Positions 9,695-39,649 of a stretch of DNA of 39,649 nucleotides are shown here, in pieces. The notes beneath the pieces were generated by a model that did not search any database, was not told the origin of the DNA, and saw only the letters and a program-made list of their open reading frames with translations. Position 1 is the first letter of the stretch. Every line of letters begins with the position of its first letter. The position numbers and the translations under genes are program-made. The DNA comes from a virus, in IMG/VR virus record IMGVR_UViG_3300009173_000032, positions 1 through 39,649 of that record, one strand, 5' to 3'.

Positions 9695-9959
9695 ATAATG
9701 CTCTTTTATTTAGTGTGTCTCTATAGTACAACTCTTGTTGGTATTTTTTTATTATAATTTCGTAATTGTATAATATATCTTGTTGGCGTTGGCTAATATC
9801 AATTAGTTCTCTAATAGACTCGTCTTGTAAAAGCATTATTACATTAGCTTTTTTTAATTCCTGTGCGGCCTTCAGCAAGTGGGGATCATAATTATCTTTG
9901 ATAAGGCGATATTCTACCACTCCAAATAATAATAAAAATAATAAAAATCTCACCCACAT
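9681..9959 (-). CDS. N-terminally anchored coiled-coil protein (92 aa), spanin-like topology
   Basis: Residues 1-20 (MWVRFLLFLLLFGVVEYRLI) form a signal-anchor helix. The rest is a charged helix rich in Leu/Ile heptads (AAQELKKANVIMLLQDESIRELIDISQRQQ...). This topology and size match inner-membrane spanins (Rz type) of phage lysis cassettes. There is no sequence-level match that I can assert and no endolysin nearby, so this is a suggestion. It is first in the leftward operon and divergent from phoH, with a late-type box directly upstream. Confidence 0.6.
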   Translation of the reverse strand: MWVRFLLFLLLFGVVEYRLIKDNYDPHLLKAAQELKKANVIMLLQDESIRELIDISQRQQDILYNYEIIIKKYQQELYYRDTLNKRALYDPN

Positions 9960-9973
9960 ATTTTAATATACAC
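9957..9973 (-). promoter_or_regulatory. Late-type box upstream of 9959 (minus)
   Basis: Minus strand reads GTGTATATTAAAAT-ATG, with the box starting 14 nt before the start codon. It is back-to-back with the + strand box at 9981. Confidence 0.6.
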
Positions 9974-9980
9974 ATACTAA

Positions 9981-9998
9981 GTGTATTATATATAGATG
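9981..9998 (+). promoter_or_regulatory. Late-type box upstream of phoH
   Basis: GTGTATTATATATAG directly precedes the ATG at 9996, 15 nt from the box start to the start codon. There is no Shine-Dalgarno. Confidence 0.6.
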
Positions 9999-10730
9999 GC
10001 TAGAAAAAAGGCACTGGCAGCTGATGGGGATCTCGCGAAACATATTCAAGGTTTTAACGGACTAACTTCTCATTTTCATGTCCAATCCAAAAGACTGACA
10101 GATAAGCAAAAATCTTTTTTAGACTTATCTCTTGACCCAAAAACTAATGTTGTTTTTTGTGCAGGCCCTGCAGGTACCACCAAAACCTACGTAGCCGTTT
10201 ATTCGGCGCTTCGTTTCTTAAGCACTAATATTGATCTTGATCTATTTTATGTTAGAACCGTAGTTGAAAGTGGAGAACGAAACCTAGGTTCCCTTCCTGG
10301 GGATGTAGACGAGAAATTTAACCCGTATATGGCTCCTTTAGATGATAAGCTAAGGGAGATGGTAAAGCCCTCAATCATACCAGAGCTTATTCAAAAGCGT
10401 AGGATTGAAGCAATGCCTATTAATTATTTAAGGGGGGCGAGCTGGGAAAATAAAATCGTTATTGCGGACGAGGCTCAAAATTTTACATTTAAGGAATTAA
10501 CGACTCTCATTACTCGAATAGGAGAAAATACCAAGTTATTTGTTTGTGGAGACTTTTTACAATCAGACATTAATGGCAAGACGGGATTCCGTAAGATGTT
10601 CGATTTGTTTGATGATGAAATTAGCAAAACGAAAGGGATTCATACTTTTGAGTTTACCAAAAAAGATATTAAACGGAGTAAAATATTAGGCTACATTATT
10701 GAAAAAATCGAAAAAGCTGTGGGGTCTTAG
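9996..10730 (+). CDS. phoH: PhoH-family P-loop ATPase
   Basis: This 244-residue protein carries a Walker A GPAGTTKT (residues 57-64) and a Walker B VIADEAQN (155-162). Both are in the layout of the PhoH domain, an SF1-helicase-like ATPase common in marine and large phages. The size is normal for phage PhoH. Its role in phages is not established; ribonuclease-coupled RNA metabolism or phosphate-stress functions have been proposed. It is the first gene of the right-hand module. The start at 9996 is directly after a late-type box. Confidence 0.92.
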   Translation: MARKKALAADGDLAKHIQGFNGLTSHFHVQSKRLTDKQKSFLDLSLDPKTNVVFCAGPAGTTKTYVAVYSALRFLSTNIDLDLFYVRTVVESGERNLGSLPGDVDEKFNPYMAPLDDKLREMVKPSIIPELIQKRRIEAMPINYLRGASWENKIVIADEAQNFTFKELTTLITRIGENTKLFVCGDFLQSDINGKTGFRKMFDLFDDEISKTKGIHTFEFTKKDIKRSKILGYIIEKIEKAVGS

Positions 10731-10748
10731 TGTATTAGGGTATATATG
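10730..10748 (+). promoter_or_regulatory. Late-type box upstream of 10746
   Basis: GTGTATTAGGGTATAT-ATG. The box begins at the last base of the phoH stop codon, 16 nt before the next ATG. Confidence 0.55.
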
Positions 10749-11324
10749 GATAGTTATATCATTGCCGCCATCATAGGAGCCTCCGCAACAATTTGCGCGG
10801 TCGTTTTAAAAACTTATCTTTCGGGACATTGGCAAAAAGGAAAGCTTGAGAAGCATACCGTTCAAAACGAAAATGTTTATCGTGCCCTAGAATACGCTCG
10901 AGAGAAGCTATTGGCTGATAGGGTGGTTGTATATGAATTTCATAATGGAGATATCTACTATTCTGGAAGTTCACAACAAAAATTCAGTAATACTTATGAG
11001 GTAGTAGCAGACGGTGTTAGTTCTGAACTTAAAAACCAACAAAATTTACGAGTCTCTTCTTTCAATAGATTAATTAAGCCATTGGTAGATGCAGACGAAT
11101 ATGGATTTGACGACCTAGGAGATATTGAAGATGTGGTTTCTCGTACTTTTTTTGAAGATCAAGGAACGAAAAGTACATTTTGCGTACCCATTCAACTTTT
11201 GACGGGAAAAATAATTGGAATACTAGGGGTAGACTACGTTAAGTCCCCACAGAAGCTTAAAGCTCACCAGAAAGATTTTATAAAAAATCAGTCATGTATT
11301 ATATCGGGTTATTTAAAAGCTTAG
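10746..11324 (+). CDS. Membrane-anchored GAF-like protein (192 aa)
   Basis: Residues 4-25 form a transmembrane segment (IIAAIIGASATICAVVLKTYL). The soluble part has a GAF-like pattern: RVVVYEFHNGDIYYSG (59-74), a SNTYEVV strand, and STFCVPIQLLTGKIIGILGVDYV near the end. The FHNG motif recurs in a group of small membrane-linked GAF-type proteins I recall from phages and bacteria. A ligand is not known. A role in sensing or at the membrane during lysis is possible but not shown. It lies between phoH and the zinc-ribbon gene. Confidence 0.7.
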   Translation: MDSYIIAAIIGASATICAVVLKTYLSGHWQKGKLEKHTVQNENVYRALEYAREKLLADRVVVYEFHNGDIYYSGSSQQKFSNTYEVVADGVSSELKNQQNLRVSSFNRLIKPLVDADEYGFDDLGDIEDVVSRTFFEDQGTKSTFCVPIQLLTGKIIGILGVDYVKSPQKLKAHQKDFIKNQSCIISGYLKA

Positions 11325-11330
11325 AAAAAA

Positions 11331-11347
11331 AATTATAATATACTATG
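11331..11347 (+). promoter_or_regulatory. Late-type box upstream of 11345
   Basis: TATAATATACT-ATG, with TATAAT at 11334-11339. The 14 bases TATAATATACTATG are identical to those before 28381. The GTG of other boxes is absent here (AAT instead). Confidence 0.6.
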
Positions 11348-11752
11348 AATGTAGAATACTGTAGTCATTGCGGACATAAGAATATTTACTCAGCAACGGC
11401 CCCTAATTTTTGCGCGGGGTGCGGAAAGCCTTTGAGGGAACAAATGCAGGCTCACCATGGTGTTGAAAAAAAAGCCGAAGAAGAGGTTTCGGATGAAATT
11501 CCCCAGTTAACGAGTCTAGCCTATGAAGTAGAAATGGATTCAGGAAACAAAAAACTTACCTTGGGAGACGTCATGCGAGAAGGAGTACGAACCTATGGAG
11601 AGGGTGGTCCTCCTAAACAGGGAGCATCATCTGTTCCAGGACGAGAGAAAGCTCCTGAAGGTCAATCCTTTTCTAAAGCAGACATCCTTAAGGACGGCTT
11701 AAATTCGTGCAGAAGTGCAAGAGGTCAACTATCCCAGGAAATTGAAGAATAA
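11345..11752 (+). CDS. N-terminal zinc-ribbon protein (135 aa)
   Basis: Cys pairs C6-x2-C9 and C23-x2-C26 (YCSHCGHKN...FCAGCGKPL) form a zinc ribbon of the type seen in double-zinc-ribbon proteins. The remaining 100 residues are acidic and probably disordered, with two related segments, LGDVMREGVRTYGEGG and KADILKDGLNSCR. The function is unknown. The position just before a sigma-like gene, with a 38-nt overlap, suggests a transcription-related partner, which is inference. Confidence 0.7.
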   Translation: MNVEYCSHCGHKNIYSATAPNFCAGCGKPLREQMQAHHGVEKKAEEEVSDEIPQLTSLAYEVEMDSGNKKLTLGDVMREGVRTYGEGGPPKQGASSVPGREKAPEGQSFSKADILKDGLNSCRSARGQLSQEIEE

Positions 11753-12476
11753 GCCTAATTTTACTTACGAAGATAAATCCGATACCATAGACATAGAGCT
11801 TGCAAAGCGCCGAAATAAATGGTTCTTGTATTCTGTCGCTTGGATTGACTTCGATGATGTGTGTCAAATTATTAGGTCACATATTTTTGCTAAATGGTCC
11901 CAATGGGATCAAGAGCGGGCTTTAGAACCGTGGTTAAATAGAATCATATCCAATCAGCTTAAAAATATTTTACGCAATAACTATGGTAATTATGTACGGC
12001 CTTGTTTGAATTGCCCCTTTAATCAAAGCGGGCCTCCTTCAACTACTAGCGAGGGTTTGTGTGCATTTACATCAAACGGCCTTCAATGTAATGAATGCCC
12101 TCTCTACGCAAAATGGGAAGTAACTAAAAAAGATGCTTATAACACCAAGATGGCCCTAGCTTTAGAGAATCATGCCCACGAAGTTAATTCAATGCCCCAA
12201 GATTCGTTATGGAACATGGAAGAGTCTATCAATAAAATCCATGGTTATATGAAGGAGGAAATAGCTGAGAAAAAATACAAGATATATAAAATGCTTTATA
12301 TCGACTATTTAGAAGAATCAGAGGTGGCTCTGGCCATGGGTTATAAAACTTCTGAAAAAGGGAGAACGGCAGGGTATAAGCAAATTAGAAATTTAAAAAA
12401 ATTCTTCAAAGAAAAAGTGGAGAATATAATTGAAAAATATGACATTGTGATCCATGGAGGAACTTCAACTTACTGA
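11715..12476 (+). CDS. Sigma-factor-like protein (candidate late sigma)
   Basis: Residues about 43-90 (WIDFDDVCQIIRSHIFAKWSQWDQERALEPWLNRIISNQLKNILR) match sigma70 region 2 layout: D-x-x-Q ... W-x-x-x-D ... P-W-L-x-x-I-x-x-N-x-x-x-x-x-L-R. A Cys-containing insert (C97, C100, C116, C125, C128) follows and may bind zinc. Residues about 190-235 resemble a region 4 helix-turn-helix (YLEESEVALAMGYKTSEKGRTAGYKQIRNLKKFF). Such proteins can direct late transcription, as T4 gp55 does. The GTG start at 11715 is the best in-frame choice but is inside the previous gene and unverified. Confidence 0.7.
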   Translation: MQEVNYPRKLKNKPNFTYEDKSDTIDIELAKRRNKWFLYSVAWIDFDDVCQIIRSHIFAKWSQWDQERALEPWLNRIISNQLKNILRNNYGNYVRPCLNCPFNQSGPPSTTSEGLCAFTSNGLQCNECPLYAKWEVTKKDAYNTKMALALENHAHEVNSMPQDSLWNMEESINKIHGYMKEEIAEKKYKIYKMLYIDYLEESEVALAMGYKTSEKGRTAGYKQIRNLKKFFKEKVENIIEKYDIVIHGGTSTY

Positions 12477-13512
12477 CCAACAAAAGGCATACATTGATGC
12501 GAATCACAAGGAGTTGCCTGACTTGATACAACTCACGAGAAGAGTGTTTAATGATGACTCCCTAGACGGGCGCACTAAACAAGGGAAACTTGTGAGAGAG
12601 TTCTTGGTGGAGTGTGGGTTTAAATATAAGACCACTAAAAACAAAAAAGCCAAAAACATCTACTTAAGTGATGAGGAAAAGGAATTCATAGAACAATCTG
12701 CCAGAGACGGTATGAATGCATTTCAAACCGCCTGTATTATTTGGCATGATAGGGAAATCACTCCCTTAAGCAAGGAGACGCTAGTAGTGGCCGAACACAT
12801 TAAGTCCACAAAGCCTAATCTTCTACGGGCGGAGGATTCTGCGCTAGGAGAAGGGTACGAACCTCCACAAACTTCTTCGGCGGCAATAAAGCTATTAAAT
12901 CGGTATTGTTCAGCAAACATAAAGCCAGAAGCAATATCCTTAAAACAAAAAAAATACGTAGAGCAAATAATGAAGTTTGTTTCGACTCCTCGTTTCTTTC
13001 AAGTTATTAATAGTTATACTGATAAAGGAGACAGGGATTTATTTGAAGCAGAGTTTATTCGCACAACTTGGGATAAGCCTGATCTCACAGCAGATGAAAT
13101 AAATTTATATATCAATGTATGCATAGATTACATCAACCTTAAGAACATTAATAAAGCAATGGAAAAACTTAATAGAATGTTCCATGAAGCAGATGATCAA
13201 AGGGATATGACAGTAAGGCTTGCCGAATTATTAAAAACTAAAAGTGACGAATACAATCAATGCGAAAAGAGAATGGAGTCGCTCATCAACCGTTTAAACG
13301 GTGATAGAGCAAGAAGGATACAAGGAAGACAAGAGGAGAACGCTTCTATCTTATCTTTAGTAGAATTATTCCAGGACGAGAAAGAGCGTGCTATTATGCT
13401 TAAGATGGTAGAAATGCAACGAGAAGCTATTGATGATGAAGCTACCCTTATAGAATCAATGCCCGAATGGAAGGCTCGTGTTCTGGGCTTGGGGAGAGGG
13501 GAGGTAATATGA
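12454..13512 (+). CDS. Packaging-module protein of unknown function (candidate small terminase)
   Basis: This 352-residue, largely helical and charged protein starts at 12454 inside the 3' end of the sigma-like gene. The N-terminal 120 residues contain helix-turn-helix-like stretches (TKQGKLVREFLVECGF; SARDGMNAFQTACIIWHDREITPLSKETL). The C-terminal third is a likely coiled coil (KAMEKLNRMFHEADDQRDMTVRLAELLKTKSDEYNQCEKRMESL). DNA-binding N-terminus, oligomerising coiled coil and location near terL would suit a small terminase, but the size is large and no family motif is recognised. Confidence 0.55.
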   Translation: MEELQLTDQQKAYIDANHKELPDLIQLTRRVFNDDSLDGRTKQGKLVREFLVECGFKYKTTKNKKAKNIYLSDEEKEFIEQSARDGMNAFQTACIIWHDREITPLSKETLVVAEHIKSTKPNLLRAEDSALGEGYEPPQTSSAAIKLLNRYCSANIKPEAISLKQKKYVEQIMKFVSTPRFFQVINSYTDKGDRDLFEAEFIRTTWDKPDLTADEINLYINVCIDYINLKNINKAMEKLNRMFHEADDQRDMTVRLAELLKTKSDEYNQCEKRMESLINRLNGDRARRIQGRQEENASILSLVELFQDEKERAIMLKMVEMQREAIDDEATLIESMPEWKARVLGLGRGEVI

Positions 13513-14462
13513 TTGATCCATTAAAGCCTAATTTATATTGCAAGATATGTAGTGAGTCTTTCAAATCTGAACGGTCTTTACATTCTCATTTCAAGAAGCA
13601 TAAGCTTACGTTGGCAGAATACTATTGTCAACAATATCCTCGAGTTAATAAACTGAGTGGCGATCCGCTTCCTTTTAAGAATAAATTTGATTATTTTACT
13701 AAAGATTTTTCTACGCGGGCGCAAATGATAAAGTGGATTGACAAATCCCCCGTAGACGAAGTCAAGGAGTATATTCTTAATCAGTTACGTTTTCGTATTC
13801 AAAATAAAAATTTGAGATTGGGTCCCTCTCACATCGAAATTGAAACATTAAAATTACCTCCTATTGAGGTTTATATTGAGTATTTCGATTCGTATTCTAA
13901 TGCTTGTGAATTACTTGAAATTGAGCCTTTATTTAAAAGGGGGCTTGGCTCTCCTGAGCAATTTTTTGGATCAAGCAAAAAATTCGAAGACACGGAAATA
14001 TTTATAGATACTAGGGAACAGAAGCCTTTAGAGTTCCCGCGATCCCGTGATATGAAATTAGATTTCGGAGATTATACGGTAGGTGGGGATGATTATGCCT
14101 ATACCTACGTGGACCGTAAAAGTGAGGCAGACTTCAAGTCCACACTTAGTACTGGATTAGAAAGATTTAAACGAGAGCTTGATCGAGCGAGGGAGTTCGA
14201 TAGTTATCTATATATAGTAACCGAAAGCGATATAGCTAAAATTAAAAAAAATAATATATTCGGGCCACACAAATCTAATCTAGAATATGTCTTCCATAAC
14301 CTAAGAGTATTAAGTCATGAGTATGCAGATACTTGTCAGTTCATGTTTACTAGTAATAGAAGTAATTCTACTAATATTATTCCCAAGCTATTGGTGGGAG
14401 GGAGGAAATTGTGGAATGTGGATTTTCAATATTATATTGATCACTATGGAATTATGTCTTAA
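13509..14462 (+). CDS. C2H2 zinc finger plus ERCC4-type nuclease
   Basis: The start at 13509 has a strong GGGGAGG Shine-Dalgarno and overlaps the previous stop (ATGA); the longer ORF from 13467 is not needed. Residues 11-31 hold a classical C2H2 finger (C11, C14, H27, H31). Residues about 163-240 match an ERCC4/XPF-type nuclease: IFIDTREQKPL (D167), LDFGDY (D188), VDRKSEADF (D202-R203-K204) and STGLERFKREL. Such nucleases cut branched or flap DNA. Placed just before terL, it may resolve replicated DNA for packaging. The active site looks intact. Confidence 0.82.
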   Translation: MIDPLKPNLYCKICSESFKSERSLHSHFKKHKLTLAEYYCQQYPRVNKLSGDPLPFKNKFDYFTKDFSTRAQMIKWIDKSPVDEVKEYILNQLRFRIQNKNLRLGPSHIEIETLKLPPIEVYIEYFDSYSNACELLEIEPLFKRGLGSPEQFFGSSKKFEDTEIFIDTREQKPLEFPRSRDMKLDFGDYTVGGDDYAYTYVDRKSEADFKSTLSTGLERFKRELDRAREFDSYLYIVTESDIAKIKKNNIFGPHKSNLEYVFHNLRVLSHEYADTCQFMFTSNRSNSTNIIPKLLVGGRKLWNVDFQYYIDHYGIMS

Positions 14463-25170: not shown

Positions 25171-26409
25171 ATGGCAATTAGAAACAGAATCTTATATCAA
25201 TCAGAAGCGCTTTACGTTTCTGATCTCACCGCCGCTGCTGGTGTAGCGAATACAGCTCAACAGCTCAATAGGGTGCAGGACATCAGTCATGACCTGGACA
25301 TTAACCGTACTGACATTTATGAGTTTGGTCGTTTGGCGCCTTTAACTCGCCAAGTGGTTGACGCTCCTACCGTATCTTTAGACTTTAGTTATCTTCTAGC
25401 AGACGGTGACAACGAAGTTAAAATGGGCTTCGAGTTGCAAAACTCAAGCGATGGTGGCAGTGCTGCCTGGCCTAGCGCTATTAGTGGCATCGTTTCCGTA
25501 GCCGCGGAAAAGGAAAAGAATTATTATGTTGTTACTACTAAAGAATACCTTGACGCTGACGACGGAGCTGTTGGTGCTGGCACTGGGCCCACTGCAGCCG
25601 ATTGTACGGTCGTTGGTTTTGGTAACGGCGTAATTACTAACTATGGTGTCAATGTAGCCGTTGGTGATCTTCCTACAGCCAGCCTTAGTGTTGAAGCTTA
25701 CAATTGTAAGTTTCAACAGGGTATAGCCTCTGCGAGTCAATGGATCTCAGGGCAGGCACCTACCATTATACAGGATGCCTCTTCAGCCAAGGGCCACCTT
25801 AAAGATAATTACTTTGAGCTTCCTGCTGCAAACACAGGAACTCTAGAAGTGTTTAGTCTTCGTCCTGGCGACGTAAGCGTTGCATTTGGCGTAGGCTCTA
25901 TTGACAGTACGCAAGCCAATAAGCTGCAAATTGGTGGGGCTATCCTGCCGACAGGCGATCCTGACTCAGCAAGCATGCCTGATGGAGAAACCCCAATCCA
26001 TCTCCAAAACTTCAGTATTGAAGTTCCTTTGGCTCGGACACCCCTCAATCAAATCGGTAGCACTTTCGCTTATGATCGTGCCATTGATTTCCCGCTTGAC
26101 ATGACGTTTAATATGAGCGCATTTTTAGCGGACGTCAGTGCAGGTCAATTAATTGACTTAATGTGCGAGACTCAAGACACGCGTGAGATTACTGTTGACT
26201 GTCGCTTCCCTTGCGGAAAGTCAGATGACGCCTCGGCCACGACCACTAACATTCAGTACGTAATCAAAAATGCTTATCTCCAAAGCCAAAACTTCGGAGC
26301 AACCATTGGCGATAATAAAACCGTTGATCTGTCCTTCACCGCTCAGTTTGGTGGACTTACTGATACGAGTAATGGACTGTTTATCTCGGGTATTAGCAAC
26401 GCTTCCTAA
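25171..26409 (+). CDS. Major tail (tube) protein candidate, paralogue 1 (412 aa)
   Basis: First of three related tail proteins. The N-terminal layout is ILYQSEALYVSD...LNRVQDISHDLDINRTDIYEFGRLAPLTRQVVDAPTVSLDFSYLLADGDN: short strands, then an I-x-x-F-G, then P-T-x-S-x-x-x-x-Y-L. This is like tail-tube proteins, with a central insertion of about 150 residues (possible surface domain). A strong terminator follows, as after the capsid gene, which fits an abundant structural product. No Shine-Dalgarno is seen. Confidence 0.68.
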   Translation: MAIRNRILYQSEALYVSDLTAAAGVANTAQQLNRVQDISHDLDINRTDIYEFGRLAPLTRQVVDAPTVSLDFSYLLADGDNEVKMGFELQNSSDGGSAAWPSAISGIVSVAAEKEKNYYVVTTKEYLDADDGAVGAGTGPTAADCTVVGFGNGVITNYGVNVAVGDLPTASLSVEAYNCKFQQGIASASQWISGQAPTIIQDASSAKGHLKDNYFELPAANTGTLEVFSLRPGDVSVAFGVGSIDSTQANKLQIGGAILPTGDPDSASMPDGETPIHLQNFSIEVPLARTPLNQIGSTFAYDRAIDFPLDMTFNMSAFLADVSAGQLIDLMCETQDTREITVDCRFPCGKSDDASATTTNIQYVIKNAYLQSQNFGATIGDNKTVDLSFTAQFGGLTDTSNGLFISGISNAS

Positions 26410-26434
26410 TCTTAGCGCCTAACTACTTAAATTT

Positions 26435-26470
26435 ATCTCCTCCTGATTTTAATCGGGGGGAGATTTTTTT
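26435..26470 (+). terminator. Rho-independent terminator after tail paralogue 1
   Basis: ATCTCCTCCTGAT (26435-26447) pairs with ATCGGGGGGAGAT (26452-26464), 13 bp with two G-U pairs, loop TTTA, then TTTTTT. Confidence 0.93.
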
Positions 26471-26476
26471 ATTATA

Positions 26477-26493
26477 GTGTAATTACTATCATG
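26477..26493 (+). promoter_or_regulatory. Late-type box upstream of 26491
   Basis: GTGTAATTACTATC-ATG, box start 14 nt before the start codon. It follows the terminator by 6 nt, restarting transcription for the second tail gene. Confidence 0.6.
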
Positions 26494-27399
26494 GCTTACG
26501 GAAGGATACTTTATGGGGAAGAGCTTGTATTTTTGGAGGGTTCTGGCCTAAGAGGAGTGCAGTCGGTAGATACGCGCTTTGATATTCCCTTTGAGCCCAT
26601 AGCCTTTGGGGGTAACAGGTTTGAAAGCGCCATATTGAAAGACTCCAAGCCTACCACTTCGTTCGGTATAGATAGTCTTATTGTAAATTCGGGAGAATTA
26701 GATCCTATTGTCGGGATGCCATTATGGGATAGCCCTATTAGTGGGGTACTACACGCTCAAGCTGATCCCCTTGAGGGAGATCCAGGACCTGCGCCCATTA
26801 ATGATTGGAGTTTTACTAGCGGTTATATTTTGAATTATTCTTCTTCCTGTACCGTAGCGGAAGTGGCGACTACTTCTTGCGAAATTCGCGTGTTTGGGGA
26901 TGTTCATAACGTTAGGCCTGACAACCTTTTTCCCGAGACGGGGAAGGTTGACGCGTCTAATCAATTTATTAATATTGCCAAAGCAGGAGATATTACCCTT
27001 ATCAATGTTACAGGGCAAGATTCAAATCGCGTGCAATCTTATAATTATAATTTAACAATTAATCGCTTAGACGTAGATAAGTTGGGCGGCAATTATCGCA
27101 ACCATATTCACGACATCATATACCCTATTGAGGTAGAGCTTTCTTTTGTAATAGATGTGGATGATATAGAGGCCCCATTATTAAGTGGGTTATTATGTAA
27201 TCCAGATTTAGATGACATTACTATTCAACTAGGGGATTGTAGTATTCCTGACTCAGGTCCAATAAGAAGCTTTATAGTAGAAAATCCTATCTTGGTTGCA
27301 ATGGAGGAAACCGTGTCTATAGGGGACGCGCTACAAGCCCAGCTTACTTATAAATCTTATATCGGAGATGTAAATAATTTAGCTACTTTGATTACTTAA
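26491..27399 (+). CDS. Tail protein, paralogue 2 (302 aa)
   Basis: The N-terminus repeats the paralogue 1 layout (GRILYGEELVFLEGSGLRGVQSVDTRFDIPFEPIAFGGNRFESAILKDSKPTTSFGIDSLIVNSGE): strand pair, VQS-(V/I), I-x-x-F-G, P-T-x-S. It lacks the long insertion. The C-terminal NPILVAMEETVSIGDALQAQLTYKSYIG is similar to tube-type C-terminal strands. It could be a second tube subunit, an initiator-end protein or a decoration protein. It has its own promoter, so its amount could be set separately. Confidence 0.62.
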   Translation: MAYGRILYGEELVFLEGSGLRGVQSVDTRFDIPFEPIAFGGNRFESAILKDSKPTTSFGIDSLIVNSGELDPIVGMPLWDSPISGVLHAQADPLEGDPGPAPINDWSFTSGYILNYSSSCTVAEVATTSCEIRVFGDVHNVRPDNLFPETGKVDASNQFINIAKAGDITLINVTGQDSNRVQSYNYNLTINRLDVDKLGGNYRNHIHDIIYPIEVELSFVIDVDDIEAPLLSGLLCNPDLDDITIQLGDCSIPDSGPIRSFIVENPILVAMEETVSIGDALQAQLTYKSYIGDVNNLATLIT

Positions 27400-27474
27400 G
27401 GTGTATTCATGAACAAGAAAGGTTTTTAGGAATGATAAAATATATAAAAAATTTCATAAAGGAGGTCAAATAAT

Positions 27475-28347
27475 ATGCCCGCTGCTACAACTTATTATAA
27501 TTGTCCCGTTTTAATTGGAGAAGGAGGGCCCGCAAGTAGCCCGAACAAGTTCTTTGTGGCACAACAGGCCAGCATAGAAGAAACCCTTCCTTTATTGCCT
27601 GTTAAAAGCCTAGGGCAAACCAGTGTCCTTAATACTATTCCAGAAAACGTGCTGCAGGGGACCATTAGTATAAGTTATCTACTATCTGCGGGGAGCGCGG
27701 GAGGCAAGGGCTCTCTTAGCATCTCTGATATCTTAGGCTGGAGCACTATGGATCGCACAATACCCCTAGAACTTAATGGCCAAATTGGAGTGACGCGATT
27801 TCAAAACGCCGTACTTACCAGTTTTTCATTAGATGCTGGCGCTCAATCCGTAATTTCGTGTTCTATAAACTTGGCTTATTACAAGCAGTCGCAAGCCTTA
27901 ACTGACGGCGGGGACACGAGTGAAACCTTATTAGATACTAATAGCTTGGAATATGCACACGGAGCGAATTCTACGCCCGATGCAGGCGAATTAGCTTTAA
28001 ATGACAATCTTTTTAGTTTTAAATTTGATCTAACTGAATCGGTGACCCCTATCCACATACTAGGGGCCATTGATCAAACGCAGCTATTAAAGGGGGGCGG
28101 AGAAGCAAAAATGACATGGGTCGGCAATAATTTACCCCAAGCCCTCGTAACGAGCCCAGACGAGTTATGCATAACAGCCCGCGGTGCAAGCTTTACTGCT
28201 AGTAGTTGCGGAGAGGCCATGACCGAATCGATTTCATTTCCCCTAGGATCAAAGGGGGATGAAAATGCATACATGAGCAATCGCTCTATTGACGTTTCTG
28301 AAGGGGGCGTACTTAATGGAACTGCCACTCTTACGCAATTTTATTAA
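27475..28347 (+). CDS. Tail protein, paralogue 3 (290 aa)
   Basis: The start has AAAGGAGG 8 nt upstream. The layout again fits the tail-tube-like set: YYNCPVLIGEGG, VAQQASIEETLPLLPVKSLGQTSVLNTIPENVLQGTISISYLLSAG. The C-terminal part has a Gly/Ser-rich beta pattern (ALVTSPDELCITARGASFTASSCGEAM). The 75-bp gap upstream holds GTGTATT at 27401 and a six-codon ATG ORF (27409-27429), which may or may not be meaningful. Confidence 0.62.
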   Translation: MPAATTYYNCPVLIGEGGPASSPNKFFVAQQASIEETLPLLPVKSLGQTSVLNTIPENVLQGTISISYLLSAGSAGGKGSLSISDILGWSTMDRTIPLELNGQIGVTRFQNAVLTSFSLDAGAQSVISCSINLAYYKQSQALTDGGDTSETLLDTNSLEYAHGANSTPDAGELALNDNLFSFKFDLTESVTPIHILGAIDQTQLLKGGGEAKMTWVGNNLPQALVTSPDELCITARGASFTASSCGEAMTESISFPLGSKGDENAYMSNRSIDVSEGGVLNGTATLTQFY

Positions 28348-30557: not shown

Positions 30558-30578
30558 GTGTAATTATTATCGCAAATG
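30558..30578 (+). promoter_or_regulatory. Late-type box upstream of the tape measure gene
   Basis: GTGTAATTATTATC (30558-30571) matches the box at 26477 at 13 of 14 bases, here 18 nt from its start to the ATG at 30576. Confidence 0.58.
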
Positions 30579-33500
30579 GCGCAGGAAAGCATAGGTATTA
30601 GAGTAAAAGCGGTTGGCCTACAGAAGGACGTAGAGAACCAAGCGAAGGCCGCACAGCGTACTATTTCGAAGACTCCTGTTAAATTAGCTTTGGACTCCAA
30701 GGCTTTCCAGCAACCTCTTGGCAGGATTTCGGGCGACATGTCGGAGTTCCAGAAATCCCTGGACGCTTCCACCGCTCGTGTATTTGCATTTGGCGCAACC
30801 GTCGGAGTGATTAACGGCATAAGCGAAGCCTTCAAAGGAACCACGCAGGCCATTATTGAGGTACAACGTGCCCTCACCGACATTAATGTTGTCATGGAAT
30901 TAAACGCCAGTCAATTAGACTCTTTTTCCGATGGGCTTTTTAAGGTAGCTCAAAATACAGCTCAAACTTTTGCGACTGTAGCTACGGCTGCTACGGAATT
31001 TGCGCGGCAAGGGCTAGGGGCCGAAGAGACCTTAAGGAGAGTAAACGATGCTCTGGTCTTGACTCGACTCTCAGGAATGGATGCCACCCGTTCTGTAGAA
31101 GCCTTAACTGCTGTTGTGAATGGCTTCGCCAAAGAAGGGCTCAATACTACCGAGGTGATTAACCGCCTAGCTAATGTAGACGCTGCATTCGCCGTAAGCT
31201 CTAAAGATTTAGCAGATGGATTATCGAGGGCGGGAGCTACAGCCCAGGGAGCGGGAGTAAACTTTAATGAGCTTTTAGCAATTGTAACATCCGTTCAACA
31301 GCAAACCGCTCGAGGGGGCGCAGTTATCGGAAATGCATTTAAAAGTATTTTTACTCGCCTTCAGCGAAGCAAAGTAAGAGAAACGTTAGAGGGGATTGGG
31401 GTGGCCACTACTGATTCTATGGGAGGTTTTAGATCTGCTATTTCTGTTTTGAAAGATTATGCTGGCGTTTTCCCTGCTCTAACTGACGCGCAACAGGCTT
31501 TTACTGCAGAACAAATTGCAGGGGTTTTTCAAATCAATAATTTAAAAGCCCTCGTAAATGATTTAAATAATGAATTCTCTATTTATAGCCAGGCTTTATC
31601 TACCGCTGCCAACAGTACTAATGAGGCTACTCGACGGAATGAAGCACTCAACCAAACTTTTGCTGCATTAATTGCTCAAACTGGAGAAGGTGTACGCCAA
31701 CTGGCTGAGTCTTTTGGGTCTCTTACTTTAGAGCCTGCCATGAATCGGGTCTTAACAATGTTGCAATCGGTGGTGGACACAATGAATTCAATGCTTGACC
31801 AAGACAGCGGGAACAAAATGATGCAAGGCTTTTTTAAGGGGTTAGGTAATTTTATTTCTGGCCCAGGATTGGCGCTCGTGGCAGGAGCCTTTGCGGCTCT
31901 TTTGAAAAATATAGCGATGATGGGGGCGGCTGCCGTTAAAGATTTATTTAAAATTAATACTGAAGCGGGTCGTCAAAAGGCTTTACAAGAAGGGATTTTG
32001 CAGGTTCTGTTAAAAGACGAAGCGGTTTATGGACGCCTAATCGCAGCAGGAGGAGATCAAAATAAACAATCTCAGGTTTTACTTCAAACAGTTCGTCAAA
32101 TTACTTCTGAGTACGCCAAACAACAGGGGCTTATTGTTGGTCTCGCAAAAACCCCCGCTATGAAGGGTGTCACCTTTCAAGGCGGCCAATTTAAGGGTAC
32201 CAGCCCAACGGGTCAAAAAAAAATAGGAGGGACCGCCGCTCAGGGATATGTTCCCGCAGAAAAAGGAGTAGTTTTTGCAGCGGGAGCCACGCCGAGTAAG
32301 GACGCCTTTGCCTTGGGAGGGATGCCTGAGGTTCAAGCAGCTCAAGCCGCAGGTTATGCGAAACCTGTCCAGCTGCATGAAACGCGAACAATGGCTGTTC
32401 CGAATTTGGGTCAAATAATATATAATACGCAAGAGCGCGTGGTTAACGTGCCTAATATGGCGCAGCCTTTTATTGTGCCACCCACCTCTTCTAAGGCCTA
32501 TGCTAATTACGCCGACACCGTAAAAGAAAAATTTGGAGAGCCCATGAGTAAAAATGTGTTGGGTCGCGCTTTCACCCCCGCTCAGCGAGCATACGCAGAG
32601 GGCTGGAGTCCTGTAGCTACAGCACAAAGAGTGGGAGAAGCGGCTCGGGCGGCCTCTGGCCTCGTACCTAATTACGCTATTAGCGCTAGAAACATACAAA
32701 ATTTGCTAGGGACAAAGCACAAAATTGACCCTACACAGTATTATGAATATCGGGGGACGGTAGCGAGGGGGTCGGCTTTGCAAAAGGCGTTTAAGACGGA
32801 TGAAGATGGCGCCCTTGCTTGGAACCCTAAATCTATTGTGGCGAGAAACCTCGCTAAAAAAGGTGATTTTGCAGGAGGACTCACAGAAGGAAAAGGACTG
32901 CGTCGCCATAAGCTTGAATCCAAGAGTGGAGTTTCTATGTTGCTTCCCGAGCAAACCTCCAGCAATAGTGCAACAGGAGTTAATATCTCTATTTCAGGAA
33001 AAGACTTAACAAAAACATTTAAGTCGGGCACCATCAATAAAATTGTAGGGAAACGAGCCTTAGCTCGCAAGGGAATTAGAACAGAAAAAGATGCGAAGAA
33101 GGCGGTGCGGTCGAGCCTTGCTAATGATATTTTTGATGTAAGCTTTTCGCGGTCGGGGGTCCAAGATTTAGAACGAGAGACTTCTCTGCGAGAAAAAATT
33201 GATACAAAACTGTCTTCACAGATGGCTAGCATTATGGGTTCTACCGCCAAGGAGTTGTTAACCCGAGCTAAGATGACCGCCCCTATGGATCAGGGCGCAA
33301 TACAACAAAGAGCTAAAAAATTAGTAAGCAGAAATTCCCCCCTCACGGGACAACTATTTGAAGATATTGTTACAATTGCAATTGGCAAGTCTCAGGAGTT
33401 TCAAGGTACCGACGATTACAGAACGTGGGACTTTGGCGCAGCCGAACGTGGGGGCCTAAATGAAATTTTTGATAGAGACGTAAGTGCGCGGTCTGATGCA

Positions 33501-36500
33501 AAAAGATCAGATACTCCCCATGCGCGGGCCTCTATAGCCAAAAAGAGTTTGGTAGGAACCCCCAAAGGTCGGGCACTATTAAAAAAGGCGGGGCTTAGGC
33601 TTGGCGGCTTAGGAGCCTCAGAGCTAGGGGCCAGCGGCTTAGTCCCTAATTTTGCTGGCCCCCGAATGACGGCCGCTCAGGCCGCCTTTATAAAAATTAC
33701 AGGCCCCAAAGAGATCGCAGCGAATAAAAAGCTCGGGTGGGAACCTGGTCCCAATGGAGGGTGGGAACGGATTCCTAAGGCTACAGCCCCGAAGGCTGCA
33801 GTAGCCCTCCCTAAGGATTTAGAAACTTTTAATAAATACCTAACGACTTTTAGAGCTAAGAATTTCAACGGAAACCCTATTAAATTTACCAAGGGTCAAG
33901 GTGCGCCTTATGTCTGGAAAAATAATAAAGCCGCGTTTTCGCGAGGGAACCCCAATATAGGGTTATCGCAGGGGTCTAATCCTGATATGTTTTTCTTGGA
34001 AAAGAAGGGTATGAGCGACGAGTTGAAAGATAAAATTAGAAAATTAATGTTTCAGAGCCCTCGTATGCAACGGGTGGATCCTCTTGGGGGAAAGATGGCT
34101 CAGAGGGAAAAGAATTATGAGCGCGCCAAAAGTGGAAAAGTGCGGGCTAAAGGTTTAGTTCCTAATTTAGCTGAACGCGCTAGTTTAACGGACCTTTCTA
34201 CTTTGAAAAAATCTCCTGGACTTCTGTCCAATGCCAGACAAACCTCCAGGTTATATGAAGCCGCTATGGGCAGCCAGCTTTATGATAATCCCGTTCAATT
34301 TGGAGATACTAGGGTTGAGAAAATCCAAATGGCTAGCGGCGGAATGGTTCCCGTGGCAGTCAATAATCAAGAGCAAGTATTTAAAACAGGTACAGATGTA
34401 AAGCGACATTTCGGCCTAAAGTCTGCCCCTGACGGAGGAATGGTATTGCCTCCCGCAAGTGCCCCCGTGGGCAAAGAAGCGAGAAAAGTTTTTACAGAAC
34501 GGGTACAAAATGCGGCAGGAGGAGTAGTTCCGAATTTTGCAGCAAGCTCTATGGACTTAGCTGATTTTTTTGATAAGCTAGAAAAAAGAGATCCTGAGGC
34601 TTTAGAAAAGAAAATTAATATTGGGCAGTTAAGTAAAGACCTTTCCAAGGGAGGCATATTGACAGGTAGTCACCCCGCCAATGTATTAGAAAAATTTCCA
34701 GGATATATGCGACTAGGGGGAAAAACCCCTCCTGGTCAAGACAGCTCTATTAGATTAAGCCCCAAGGTTTTGGGTAAATTAGGGTGGGGCGATAACGTTA
34801 CAGGATCCCAATTATTGGCCCTCAAGGGGAGTTCGGGCGATTCTACTTATAAACAAATACGTACCGCCTTACTTACCAAGGCAGCGCATGGAGAGGGCAA
34901 AAGACTCACGCAGACTTATGGGGGTCGCGCAGGTCAAGCAGGGATGAAGGTGAAGAAAAAAATGGAGGAAGCAATTAATGTTCCTGCTAATCTTCATGGA
35001 GTAGGAGCAGGGTTTGTAGACCCTCTCGGCGCAGGACAACAGAATTTTAATGTTAAAATGCAGGTTGGGGATCAACCTTATAATATTGATTTTCAAGGAA
35101 GCCATGTTTTTAAAAGCTTTATGCCTAAAATTGGCAATTGGCAGGAGACAGTAATAAAACAATTTAGTCAAGGATTGGCCAATATAGCTAAGAGCTTTAA
35201 TTTTTCAGGAGCTTTAGCTGCAGTTAAGGAATTGCCTAACTTTCCTGTAGAATTTAATAAAAGCCTTGACAAGACTATGGTCGCTACAATTGCAGGTAAT
35301 GCTTTTGACGCTACAATACAAACTCTTTTAAAAACAGCTCCTGGTTTTGATAGCAGGGGCAGTGCTGCCAAGCTGCCTATTCAGCGCAAGGCAGGAGTGG
35401 ACCCTATAGATTTAAATACCATTCCGCCCGCCTTAAAAGAAATAATGAATATACCTGCGATGGCGCACAGGTTAGAATTGAAGAGTACCTCCACGAGCGC
35501 TGATCTCAGATATGATATAGGAAAAAAGATTTTGGGTGTAATTTCTAAAAACCCAGAAATGGAGAAGAAACTAGGGATTGCGGGAGATAAAACGAAGAGC
35601 AAACGTTTTCAAGCGCTTGGTACAGAAGAGGACTATAAGCAAAAGGGCCTTCGTATTCAGCGTAAGTTTGCTGCATCTGCGGGTACTCCTTTGGCCGCAG
35701 GAATAATACCTAATTTTGCTTTTGAAGATTATGCTGATAAAAGATTTAAGTTAAATGAATTGCCCAAAAAGTTACCTGCTAATATTAGTGATGCAGTAAA
35801 AAGGGAAGAGGCTGCGGGAGTTCCAAAAAGCGCTATACGCGTAGATTTTCCTGCCGCTGGAGGGAGAGTGCCTAACTTTAATAAAATGCCCCCTATTGCG
35901 GTTACCAATACGGAGCATGAAGGGAGTACTTCTTCTGCCAAACAAGCCGTATCTATAGGTATTCGTAATAGGTTGACTGCTTATAAGAGCGCGGGCATTT
36001 CAGGTAATCCAATGCTTGCTGGAACAAATATGGAATTTGCCGCAGGCGGAATTGTGCCAAATTATGCGTTGCCTTTGGGGGGCGGAGGAGACCAGAGGAA
36101 AAGAAATAAACTAATAGCGGAATTATTGGAAGACATAGACAAGGCTGAGCCAGCTAAGGTAGGCAGCCCTGATACTCAAGAAAAGGTAGACGAGGCTCTT
36201 AACAAGGAGAAGGAGCGCATTAAAGGCTTACGGCAGCAGATTACCGAAAGATTAGACGTTAAGGAGGGATCGATTTTTAGTAAAAGCACTGGGAAAGATA
36301 CGCCTAAAATGTTAGAAATTTTACAAAAAAGGCAGGCAAATGAAGTCCTAACGAAAAAAGGCGAGCCGCAGCAAAGCAGAGCCGCCGCGTTCTCTACGAG
36401 CCAAATAGAAACAATGCAAACAGCGCAAACTTTAGAGGAATTTAATAAAGTTAGTGAAGATGCTATCCGTGACAGTAAAAAGCAATATGAACGAGGAGAG

Positions 36501-39500
36501 ATAACCCGCGGACAATTAACAAAGAGACAGAAGGCTATATTTAAACAGACAGGCTACACAGGTGTTGAGGCGCCCCAAAAGGCGCAGGAATTTAAGCAGC
36601 AAAGCGTTTCTAATGTAAAAAATCCTAAATTAAAAACACAGCTACAAAACCAAGCCCTGGCCCCCACGCCCGCAGGCGAGCTCACCCAAGCGCAACAAAC
36701 CGCTATTCTTGACGAAGGAGTAGTGAGAAAGAAAGATCTTAACCCGAAGGAAGGTTTAAGCGGAAGATCACAAACCATGCGGGCGCAGATGGAGACGGCA
36801 ATTAAGAAGCATGCCACATTGGGGGGCGCAAACATTACACCAGAGCAAAGTGCCCAGCTTCAGCCTGATGCAGAGGAAAGACGCCAATTAGTTAAAGCGC
36901 GAGATGCTGCGCTGAAAAAGACACAAATAGCTTTTAAGGCTTCGGATGAAGCACTAGGAGGGACCCAAAAGGGCACTGCTGGAGGCGCCAGGAGCGGAGG
37001 CCTCAACGCTGAAATCACAAAATCGGAAGCTCGCCAAAAACAAATAGTACAAAACGCTGCACAAGAGATAAGAATAGCTGAAACTAAAAAGGCGGATAAG
37101 GCGTACATGGATGAGGTTAAGAAAATAACGGGCGACGCAGGAGGCGACGTGGGCAAAAAACTGACACCAAAAAGTATTTCCGCTTATGAAGCTGCATTTG
37201 GCGATACTACTGAACAGGGAGAGGTAAGCAAAGGTAAAAAACAGTTTAGGGGTGATTTAGATACCGCCATAAGAACCCAGGAGGCTATTGACAATAGTAG
37301 GATGGAGGATGCCAATAAAGGCATTGCCGAACAAGATAAAAGGCTTGCAGCTTTAAAAGAAGAAATAGCCCAAGAAAAGAAAACTGCACGTAAAGGTAAT
37401 GAGGCGGAGAAAAAGGTAGTAAAAGTTAAAGAACAAATATTTAAGGATTTAAAGGCGCAGCGCAAACAACAAAACGCGGCTTCAGATAAAGCTTTCGGAA
37501 AAGGCATGCATCGTCCTGGGTTGGCAAATGCAGCTTTTACGTTACCTTTTGTTTTATCTATGGGAGCGGGAATGATGCCCGAACAAGCAGGAGGTACTAA
37601 GGGTGGAAAAACAATGGGGGCCGCTCAAGGCGCTATGCAGGGTGCGGGTATGGGAGCCATGGGCTTTATGGCAGGAGGCCCAACGGGCATTATTACAACT
37701 GTAATTGGGACGGTGGTAGGAGGACTCATGGGCTTCATGGGCAAATTAAGTCCCAGCATAGAAGAGCTTACGAAAAACTTTGCAGACATGAACGCACGGG
37801 CAGTTTCTGTTACAAACACTACAAGCGGCTATTTAAAAATTCAAGAGCAATTAAATCAAGCCCTACAAACAGGAGACGCAAAAAGACAACTAAAACTACA
37901 AAAAGACCTAAAGGAAGCTTTTGTGGATATCGTTGATTCTGATGTGCGGTCACAAATTATTAGCACAGGAGGAGATTTAGATCAGTTAGGAGACGTTTTA
38001 CAGAGAGTTAGCTTAGACGCTAAAAATGCCGCTCAAGAACTGGCACTTGTAGCTCAGTTTGCGCAGACAGGGGAAGACGCGGGGGGTTGGCACGGCATGG
38101 GTAAGCGGGCAGTTAAGGAAAGCGAAATAGAAAAACTTGGCCAGACGCTACAGTTAAAGGGAAAAATTGAAGACCCCAAACAAATAGAAAAAATTCGAGG
38201 AGCTATGTCGAAAGGGGACCCGCGCGCAGCGCTTGAGGGGTTTGGGCTTTCTGGTGAGGCGCAGGATACTATTGTTGACGATTCCCGCATGAAGGTAACC
38301 GATATTTTTAGAGCCATAGAAAAAGCGCTAGACAATAGCGCCCAAATAATTGAAGAATCTCGTTTTATAGAAATTCTCCAGAAAGATGCGCACTCCCTTA
38401 AGAGTTATAATGAAGAGATTACCCGCACCGCTAATATTTTATCTCGGGGTTATGGGCGTATAGCTGATTACTTTGGCCAGCTCTCAAAATTAAGCGAGAA
38501 TCTTTTTCAGCGCCGCCTGGCATTACGAGATACTCTGGGCCTAGAAGCGCCCACGCGGAGCCGCGAAGATTTAGCGGCTTATCGGACTGCTCAACTAGAT
38601 ACGTCACAAGCCATACAGACGCAAAAATTATTCGCAGACTTTATTGAGGAGTCTCGCGACTTCGGCAACGAACCCCTTAAGACGGCTTATGAAAGCGCAT
38701 TAGCCAAGAGTACATCCCCAGGGGGGATAGATCCCACTAAACTCGCAGAACAAATCCTTAGGGTGGTTGGGAACCCTAGGACGAGCGACGGCGAAACGAT
38801 CAAGCTAGAAGAGGGCTCCGACGAGATTGCAGCGAGGAATACGTTAATTAAATCACTTCAAGATTTAAACGTTTCTACTCAACTAGAGAAGGCTTCCATT
38901 GATTTAAACAATAGGCTTCTGGATAGGCAAAAACTAGTAGCCAGTCAGAGCCGCATGACCAAAATGTCCTCTGACGAAGTAAAGCTTTTTAAGAACTTCA
39001 CGCTAGTTCAAGAGGATCGCGCCCAGGATGTTTCGGACAATATCATTGCCCAATCCCAGAAGGCAAAATTTACTTTGGATTTGGCGAGCTTTTTTAAGCA
39101 GCGTAACATGACCACGAATGATGAATTTCGGGGAGACGTTCAAAAAGCTACAGAAACAAAGCTTTTAGTTAATTCTATTAGAACTCTTACTGCTTTTGGG
39201 CAAGAGTTTGTTAGAGAGACCGATCCTAACTTTGGGGTTACTGATCCCGTAAAGTTCTTTTTCCCCTCCCAGGCACCTGGAGAATTCGAAAAGGAGATGC
39301 AAAAACAAGAAGGAGAAAGTGATACTGACGCCCTAACTAGAATAAATAACTATGTAGAAAAGCTGCAAGATCCTACTGAATTTTTAAACACTAGGCTTTT
39401 TGAAACTCCTCAATGGGGGGAATATACCAAAAAGAACTTCTCGGGGCCTGATGGTGAGGAACGACAGCGAAAACAAGAAAATCTCGCAAGGATTTCTTTA

Positions 39501-39649
39501 GGCGGCACAAGGGCATCGATTATAGCTTCCAGAGCAGAAGAGGCTAAAGGACCTATGGCCGCGGCCGAAACTGGTTTAATGCTGCAGGATTCTCTCAAGA
39601 AGTCTGGGGTAGATATGCAGGAGGTGGTAGAGAGATTTTTCGGTAAAGG
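30576..39649 (+). CDS. Tail tape measure protein (partial, more than 3,024 aa)
   Basis: The frame is open from ATG 30576 to the window edge, 3,024 codons without a stop. Residues about 1-430 match the TP901-type tape-measure core (FAFGATVGVINGISEAF; FAQTV-like coiled helices; GLSRAGATAQGAGVNFNELLAIVTSVQQQTARGGAVIGNAFKSIFTRL). Residues about 690-1830 hold seven G-x-[VI]-P-N-[FYL] motifs and two segments with PD-(D/E)XK-like residues. Residues about 2319-2388 form a Gly-rich hydrophobic stretch (MGAAQGAMQGAGMGAMGFMAGG) like a membrane-inserting zipper. The rest is coiled coil. Tail length would exceed about 450 nm at 0.15 nm per residue. Many antisense ORFs are shadows. Confidence 0.9.
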   Translation, partial: MAQESIGIRVKAVGLQKDVENQAKAAQRTISKTPVKLALDSKAFQQPLGRISGDMSEFQKSLDASTARVFAFGATVGVINGISEAFKGTTQAIIEVQRALTDINVVMELNASQLDSFSDGLFKVAQNTAQTFATVATAATEFARQGLGAEETLRRVNDALVLTRLSGMDATRSVEALTAVVNGFAKEGLNTTEVINRLANVDAAFAVSSKDLADGLSRAGATAQGAGVNFNELLAIVTSVQQQTARGGAVIGNAFKSIFTRLQRSKVRETLEGIGVATTDSMGGFRSAISVLKDYAGVFPALTDAQQAFTAEQIAGVFQINNLKALVNDLNNEFSIYSQALSTAANSTNEATRRNEALNQTFAALIAQTGEGVRQLAESFGSLTLEPAMNRVLTMLQSVVDTMNSMLDQDSGNKMMQGFFKGLGNFISGPGLALVAGAFAALLKNIAMMGAAAVKDLFKINTEAGRQKALQEGILQVLLKDEAVYGRLIAAGGDQNKQSQVLLQTVRQITSEYAKQQGLIVGLAKTPAMKGVTFQGGQFKGTSPTGQKKIGGTAAQGYVPAEKGVVFAAGATPSKDAFALGGMPEVQAAQAAGYAKPVQLHETRTMAVPNLGQIIYNTQERVVNVPNMAQPFIVPPTSSKAYANYADTVKEKFGEPMSKNVLGRAFTPAQRAYAEGWSPVATAQRVGEAARAASGLVPNYAISARNIQNLLGTKHKIDPTQYYEYRGTVARGSALQKAFKTDEDGALAWNPKSIVARNLAKKGDFAGGLTEGKGLRRHKLESKSGVSMLLPEQTSSNSATGVNISISGKDLTKTFKSGTINKIVGKRALARKGIRTEKDAKKAVRSSLANDIFDVSFSRSGVQDLERETSLREKIDTKLSSQMASIMGSTAKELLTRAKMTAPMDQGAIQQRAKKLVSRNSPLTGQLFEDIVTIAIGKSQEFQGTDDYRTWDFGAAERGGLNEIFDRDVSARSDAKRSDTPHARASIAKKSLVGTPKGRALLKKAGLRLGGLGASELGASGLVPNFAGPRMTAAQAAFIKITGPKEIAANKKLGWEPGPNGGWERIPKATAPKAAVALPKDLETFNKYLTTFRAKNFNGNPIKFTKGQGAPYVWKNNKAAFSRGNPNIGLSQGSNPDMFFLEKKGMSDELKDKIRKLMFQSPRMQRVDPLGGKMAQREKNYERAKSGKVRAKGLVPNLAERASLTDLSTLKKSPGLLSNARQTSRLYEAAMGSQLYDNPVQFGDTRVEKIQMASGGMVPVAVNNQEQVFKTGTDVKRHFGLKSAPDGGMVLPPASAPVGKEARKVFTERVQNAAGGVVPNFAASSMDLADFFDKLEKRDPEALEKKINIGQLSKDLSKGGILTGSHPANVLEKFPGYMRLGGKTPPGQDSSIRLSPKVLGKLGWGDNVTGSQLLALKGSSGDSTYKQIRTALLTKAAHGEGKRLTQTYGGRAGQAGMKVKKKMEEAINVPANLHGVGAGFVDPLGAGQQNFNVKMQVGDQPYNIDFQGSHVFKSFMPKIGNWQETVIKQFSQGLANIAKSFNFSGALAAVKELPNFPVEFNKSLDKTMVATIAGNAFDATIQTLLKTAPGFDSRGSAAKLPIQRKAGVDPIDLNTIPPALKEIMNIPAMAHRLELKSTSTSADLRYDIGKKILGVISKNPEMEKKLGIAGDKTKSKRFQALGTEEDYKQKGLRIQRKFAASAGTPLAAGIIPNFAFEDYADKRFKLNELPKKLPANISDAVKREEAAGVPKSAIRVDFPAAGGRVPNFNKMPPIAVTNTEHEGSTSSAKQAVSIGIRNRLTAYKSAGISGNPMLAGTNMEFAAGGIVPNYALPLGGGGDQRKRNKLIAELLEDIDKAEPAKVGSPDTQEKVDEALNKEKERIKGLRQQITERLDVKEGSIFSKSTGKDTPKMLEILQKRQANEVLTKKGEPQQSRAAAFSTSQIETMQTAQTLEEFNKVSEDAIRDSKKQYERGEITRGQLTKRQKAIFKQTGYTGVEAPQKAQEFKQQSVSNVKNPKLKTQLQNQALAPTPAGELTQAQQTAILDEGVVRKKDLNPKEGLSGRSQTMRAQMETAIKKHATLGGANITPEQSAQLQPDAEERRQLVKARDAALKKTQIAFKASDEALGGTQKGTAGGARSGGLNAEITKSEARQKQIVQNAAQEIRIAETKKADKAYMDEVKKITGDAGGDVGKKLTPKSISAYEAAFGDTTEQGEVSKGKKQFRGDLDTAIRTQEAIDNSRMEDANKGIAEQDKRLAALKEEIAQEKKTARKGNEAEKKVVKVKEQIFKDLKAQRKQQNAASDKAFGKGMHRPGLANAAFTLPFVLSMGAGMMPEQAGGTKGGKTMGAAQGAMQGAGMGAMGFMAGGPTGIITTVIGTVVGGLMGFMGKLSPSIEELTKNFADMNARAVSVTNTTSGYLKIQEQLNQALQTGDAKRQLKLQKDLKEAFVDIVDSDVRSQIISTGGDLDQLGDVLQRVSLDAKNAAQELALVAQFAQTGEDAGGWHGMGKRAVKESEIEKLGQTLQLKGKIEDPKQIEKIRGAMSKGDPRAALEGFGLSGEAQDTIVDDSRMKVTDIFRAIEKALDNSAQIIEESRFIEILQKDAHSLKSYNEEITRTANILSRGYGRIADYFGQLSKLSENLFQRRLALRDTLGLEAPTRSREDLAAYRTAQLDTSQAIQTQKLFADFIEESRDFGNEPLKTAYESALAKSTSPGGIDPTKLAEQILRVVGNPRTSDGETIKLEEGSDEIAARNTLIKSLQDLNVSTQLEKASIDLNNRLLDRQKLVASQSRMTKMSSDEVKLFKNFTLVQEDRAQDVSDNIIAQSQKAKFTLDLASFFKQRNMTTNDEFRGDVQKATETKLLVNSIRTLTAFGQEFVRETDPNFGVTDPVKFFFPSQAPGEFEKEMQKQEGESDTDALTRINNYVEKLQDPTEFLNTRLFETPQWGEYTKKNFSGPDGEERQRKQENLARISLGGTRASIIASRAEEAKGPMAAAETGLMLQDSLKKSGVDMQEVVERFFGK
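32652..36068 (+). repeat. Seven G-x-[VI]-P-N-[FYL] motif copies within the tape measure
   Basis: In-frame copies are ASGLVPNYA (32652), ASGLVPNFA (33630), AKGLVPNLA (34146), AAGGVVPNFA (34512), AAGIIPNFA (35694), AAGGRVPNFN (35853) and AAGGIVPNYA (36039). These are protein motifs, not DNA repeats: codons differ among copies. They flank segments of 50-370 residues. Confidence 0.85.

Follow-up and report, generated by a model that had tools for sequence, protein, structure and literature searches.

What does a short peptide motif do when it recurs at uneven intervals along a very large phage tail protein? This question is raised by the 39,649-base IMG/VR virus record IMGVR_UViG_3300009173_000032, which was analysed as a whole and is called the window here. 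The open reading frame (ORF) at 30576 to 39647, on the plus strand like every window feature described below, encodes 3024 amino acids (aa) and is open at the 3' end of the window, the protein being longer than that. It is matched by the PF10145 PhageMin_Tail profile (E 2.4e-26, 93 bits, cut-off 33) and by several PHROG tape measure families, and it sits downstream of terminase and other late genes. Judged by these matches, the ORF is the tape measure protein of an uncultured tailed phage. All seven motif copies that a sequence-only reading of this DNA had claimed between 32652 and 36068 were found where it placed them, namely ASGLVPNYA (32652 to 32678, aa 693), ASGLVPNFA (33630 to 33656, aa 1019), AKGLVPNLA (34146 to 34172, aa 1191), AGGVVPNFA (34515 to 34541, aa 1314), AAGIIPNFA (35694 to 35720, aa 1707), the variant AGGRVPNFN (35856 to 35882, aa 1761) and AGGIVPNYA (36042 to 36068, aa 1823). 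Six of the seven fit the strict pattern, and copy 6 differs from it at two positions. The description of each copy as following an Ala/Gly run holds loosely and fails for copy 3, which comes after V-R-A-K. The count of seven was also incomplete, since two diverged copies upstream had been overlooked, AVPNLG (32394 to 32411, aa 607-612) and NVPNMA (32445 to 32462, aa 624-629), which by position and by eye match the SIPNFA and IVPNYA of relatives.

The copies have just 13 to 21 of their 27 bases in common (mean 17.8), so the constraint appears to act on the peptide and not on the DNA, as the earlier reading had proposed; for the same reason a DNA-level recombination site is thought unlikely. The intervals between copies are 326, 172, 123, 393, 54 and 62 aa, and this irregular spacing rules out a fixed-period tape measure ruler. 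Fixed-period repeats have a constant short period, for example 11 aa, that is tied to tail length (PMC3271669), which the motif of the window does not have. The abundance of Ala, Gly and Lys might suggest that the repeats arose by chance or from low-complexity composition, but in composition-preserving shuffles G-x-[VI]-P-N-[FYL]-[AN] is matched 0.001-0.002 times on average and at most once.

The same question was put to the IMG/VR data by a scan with a back-translated pattern for A-G-G-x-[IVM]-P-N-F-A, which matched at least 120 stretches. Among the matches listed, most lie in long ORFs (the longest of 3487 aa, many truncated where their stretches end) with one to seven copies, and three ORFs of just 219-340 aa, each with one GEMPNFA, seem to be unrelated. 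A full scan with a decoy, in which P-N was changed to N-P, found 26 stretches, each with one copy in an ORF of at most 606 aa. Across 1.41 Mb of fetched loci the motif was met in tape-measure ORFs only, the two listed exceptions being the window's own copy and a 370-aa ORF of locus L031 that holds three copies. The logo drawn from 387 unique contexts reads [AS]-x-G-[YF]-[IV]-P-N-[FY]-A, in which P and N are fixed by the search pattern and the other positions are fixed in part. The shuffles, the decoy and the IMG/VR scan all speak against the objection, anticipated by the earlier reading, that the motif is no commoner than chance, and together with the independently found relatives they make a chance origin vanishingly improbable. 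The motif is a protein-level signature limited to the tape measures of one clade.

The relatives share more than the motif. The PhageMin_Tail (PF10145) N-terminal domain of the window protein (30945 to 31523, aa 124-316) is common to most motif-bearing relatives; it aligns with most of the 93 ORFs that have enough upstream sequence, at 33-62% identity in the strong alignments, and the mean column identity in an alignment of 29 is 58%. When bacterial genomes were searched by this domain alone, leaving the motif unused, nine relatives were found in metagenome-assembled genomes (MAGs) labelled as Halobacteriovorax, Flavobacteriaceae or Flavobacteriales, Verrucomicrobiales and Proteobacteria, labels that make Flavobacteriaceae and Halobacteriovorax candidate hosts. 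The motif is present in L148, L151, L152, L153 and L154, and L149, L155 and L156 are too short to be judged for it. Because L148 and L152 stem from the same isolate, the independent count is about four of five. Searches by tblastn of 50,697 phage records with the whole region, the last module, the family-consensus spine and the C-terminal third gave no match, nor did a search for related loci in IMG/VR with the whole region and with module D find any.

In the window protein the motif bounds four modules, A (32679 to 33626, aa 702-1017), B (33657 to 34142, aa 1028-1189), for which no relatives were found, C (34173 to 34511, aa 1200-1312), which by eye may repeat an element around aa 600-693, and D (34542 to 35690, aa 1323-1705). 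Cutting the relatives at the motif yields 298 segments that fall into 50 clusters, many of them single, with recurrent short lengths of 24-26 and 44-46 aa and larger modules of up to 1239 aa. Among relatives whose homology lapses and then resumes (22 ordered pairs from 19 loci), 57% of the homology breaks lie within 15 residues of the motif at an identity of 50% or more, compared with 9% at random positions; at lower identity cut-offs the figures are 38-48% and about 11%. As judged from these alignments, the motif marks where modules start and stop. The domain-boundary interpretation of the sequence-only reading is thereby supported, since the motif is limited to tape measures, borders modules that are not related from one relative to the next and meets the homology breaks. 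A constant C-terminal tape with variable cargo was also considered as a pattern, and the 13 complete proteins, five of them with identical figures, were too few to be used.

Scanning 91 modules against Pfam and PHROG returned almost nothing, apart from an Acetyltransf_1 match at 5e-4 in one module of the set. By eye, an 87-aa module of locus L006 (2013 to 2273) looks like a GNAT acetyltransferase, and LYRG and GSGSYKSVF stretches in L034 (aa 639-844 and 1016-1229) suggest ADP-ribosyltransferase-like and kinase-like domains.

The larger finding concerns what the modules contain, namely nuclease-like domains, which the earlier reading had overlooked. Domain 1 lies in module A (33192 to 33626), has profile scores of 36-42 bits, is conserved, and is modelled with a predicted local distance difference test (pLDDT) score of 80, its fold being unconfirmed; its putative active site comprises G925, E929, D952 and D974-x-K976. 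Domain 2 lies in module D (35142 to 35690), has profile scores of 25-42 bits and is likewise conserved, with a core pLDDT of 73-90 and a putative active site of G1574, D1578 (E in most relatives), D1612 and E1634-x-K1636. The profile was made from relatives, with the window excluded from training, and it matches modules A and D and not B and C. An alignment of the 91 modules, which were not selected by the pattern, has the consensus G-x-x-F-E ... D ... K, and in 55 sequences selected by the spine the conserved positions are G in 96%, E/D in 94%, D in 94%, [ED] in 98% and K in 96%; in the A3 set, which was partly selected by the pattern, E, D and [DE]-x-K are conserved at 93-100%. The domain is found in 39 of the 40 ORFs that span both the N-terminal anchor and the spine, L034 being the exception, a figure that is not an independent frequency, the profile having been built largely from the same family. 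On the evidence of these alignments, nearly every member of the clade carries a module with a conserved E-D-[DE]xK pattern.

The arrangement G-x-x-F-E...D...[DE]-x-K is the active-site pattern of PD-(D/E)XK nucleases, and most positions outside it vary. The order of FE, D and [DE]xK in the window domains is also that of the PD-(D/E)XK nucleases, those of Mrr type among them, and in the comparison with Mrr_cat the FE, D and K fall in register at P 0.1-0.2, in a set-up that also fails between two accepted PD-(D/E)XK families; no significant profile or fold similarity to these nucleases was found. Several results weigh against a tape measure with a nuclease core and motif-marked modules. The AlphaFold model of domain 1 is mostly helical, with strands of a single residue, and is thus predicted to be almost devoid of strand. 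Searches of both models with Foldseek and VIA-align gave no credible match, a Pfam scan of the nuclease-like set found nothing in common, and none of the fold or profile comparisons confirmed a nuclease. Furthermore, L150, a complete and short relative of 1447 aa (9959 to 14299) from the bacterial MAGs, has no intact motif and keeps the domain (76.5 bits), so the motif is neither universal nor required for it. Degenerate NQIPRFN and ISRFAKG stretches stand in L150 at the places expected for the motif. We use the label nuclease-like because there is no match in structure or sequence libraries, the Mrr_cat comparison is not significant and the model is mostly helical.

These same results leave an appreciable, though smaller, likelihood that the E-D-[DE]xK domain is a structural or other metal-binding domain of the tape measure and not a nuclease, for which both the missing fold match and the mostly helical model speak; its occurrence in almost the whole family would also be in keeping with a structural role. 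Conservation centred on G, F, E, D and [DE]xK, as a catalytic site would show it, argues the other way, as do an order and spacing that align with Mrr-like nucleases, albeit not significantly. On balance we consider it somewhat probable, from the sequence pattern and its conservation, that the domain is nuclease-like.

The segment between motif copies 5 and 7 forms a conserved spine (REEAAGVPKSAIRV ... NTEHE; 35721 to 36041, aa 1716-1822), which the sequence-only reading had likened to a module of other large environmental phage tape measures. It is real and strongly conserved in the family, aligning across 55 relatives in which R1743, E1744, A1747, G1748, I1754, N1778 and E1782 are invariant (100%). 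In the Halobacteriovorax MAG tape measures L148 (9911 to 21340) and L152, which have eight motif-marked intervals over more than 3800 aa, the profile detects the spine and no nuclease-like core. The AlphaFold model of aa 1300-1850 has a mean pLDDT of 60, and its confident parts are the nuclease-like core and the helix and strand of the REEAAGVPKSAIRV element. Copies 4 to 7 fall in low-confidence linkers with a block pLDDT of about 32-50, and copy 2 lies within the low-confidence C-terminal tail of a 180-residue model. The modelled copies are thus 2 and 4-7, and these are monomer models, which are silent on contacts with the tube, a chaperone or other chains.

The sequence-only reading had offered a shell-packing plug, a protease site or a tag that docks cargo as candidate functions. 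Two further explanations of the motif can be considered in the light of these models. If it were a protease site, cleavage of the tape measure at every copy, either as it matures or once it has been ejected, would free the modules as separate proteins. Tape measure processing occurs in other phages, the core P-N-[FY]-A is strongly kept, and the copies lie in what the models predict to be low-confidence, probably exposed linkers between modules; no matching protease was identified, although no systematic search was made for one, and we regard this explanation as quite improbable. Alternatively, the motif may have a passive structural role, as a repeated short turn or strand packed on its own chain, on the tube or on neighbouring chains, and take no part in loading cargo. 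Such a role would agree with the copies that border mere spine segments of 24-46 aa and not large modules, and with the spine beside the last copies, which is among the best conserved parts, but the irregular spacing argues against a regular packing unit, and the low confidence of the monomer models argues likewise, although it remains compatible with contacts in the tail. We therefore think a passive repeat unlikely, if less so than a protease site.

The explanation that we put forward, and to which we give about an even chance, is that this clade of uncultured-phage tape measures carries a nuclease-like core together with exchangeable modules on flexible linkers marked by the motif, and that these act as delivered cargo. 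Tape measures of other phages are ejected during infection and are thought to help the DNA cross the envelope (PMC5099701, PMC13277306). In the tape measures of this clade, the string of modules follows the N-terminal domain and precedes the C-terminal part. The E-D-[DE]xK module would be a PD-(D/E)XK-type nuclease carried in the tail lumen, which after ejection may act in the host on the DNA of the host or of a rival, or on parts of a defence system. The hydrophobic G-[YF]-[IV]-P-N-F-A segment would be a short linear motif that keeps the string packable and ejectable; its likeliest partner would be the tail assembly chaperone while the tail is loaded, or the tube or adjacent chains later. Chaperone binding by hydrophobic tape measure stretches has been proposed in phage TP901-1 (PMC5099701). 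With one copy at each junction, modules could be added or exchanged with the tape undisturbed. We further speculate, as a rather doubtful extension, that there is an effector system in the tape measure, a phage counterpart of the polymorphic effector systems, in which a constant tail-lumen scaffold, a core nuclease and exchangeable effectors share a docking motif and the genome and enzymes are delivered together.

Such an arrangement resembles several known systems in part. PF10145 tape measures of Bacillus phage Stills, Lactococcus phages AM4 and 949 and Microcystis phage MaeS have N-terminal domains with about 23-34% identity to that of the window. LysM and lysozyme domains are annotated in the Stills tape measure, a precedent for enzyme domains in proteins of this type; in the three that were checked, Stills, MaeS and vB_BcoS-136, there is neither the motif nor the nuclease-like domain. 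Conceivably, the motif may have diverged from the GEAGPEAIIPL-like element that other tape measures carry, of which a single example was noted, in Stills. The tape measure of mycobacteriophage TM4 has a peptidoglycan hydrolase motif that helps infection (PMC1796659), and so resembles the window protein in holding a functional motif within a tape measure; unlike it, the TM4 protein targets the cell wall and is not reported to have nuclease-like modules or a linker motif that recurs. Polyvalent proteins and MuF fusions are large, multidomain proteins with exchangeable enzyme domains, and are believed to be injected alongside the phage DNA (Iyer et al. 2017, PMC5512222). In contrast to the window protein, which has several modules, two of them apparently nuclease-like, their domains are on MuF, portal or free-standing proteins, and the term tape measure does not occur in PMC5512222. 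Tme and Sle1 of contractile injection systems combine a tape-measure-like coiled coil with an effector part and are loaded in the tube lumen (PMC11126660, PMC13277306), but these are bacterial nanomachines with a single C-terminal effector part, for which a motif-delimited string of modules is not reported. The motif and nuclease-like tape measure domains are unmentioned in the open-access full-text literature searched, outside which most subscription papers and all bioRxiv preprints lie.

The surroundings of the modules add some detail on the virus. A terminase large subunit gene was found upstream of the tape measure ORF, and among ten late-gene products tested between 16621 and 29552, nine have no PHROG family, the terminase being the exception, which sets the virus well apart from described phages; the unmatched products include those of the probable portal and capsid genes. 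Three adjacent ORFs of 412, 302 and 290 aa (25171 to 28347), also upstream of the tape measure and with no family match, could be related tail proteins. The tape measure itself has, in its C-terminal part, a hydrophobic stretch rich in Gly and Ala that was noticed by eye at about 37470 to 37760 (aa 2300-2395), a possible membrane-inserting segment.

If the modules are enzymes delivered through the tail, the tape measures of a widespread clade of uncultured phages would be effector carriers, the motif would be a simple marker for finding cargo in metagenomes, and it would provide a handle on how a string of folded protein is loaded into a narrow tail tube. The near-universal presence of the nuclease-like domain makes a direct biochemical test feasible with one purified fragment.

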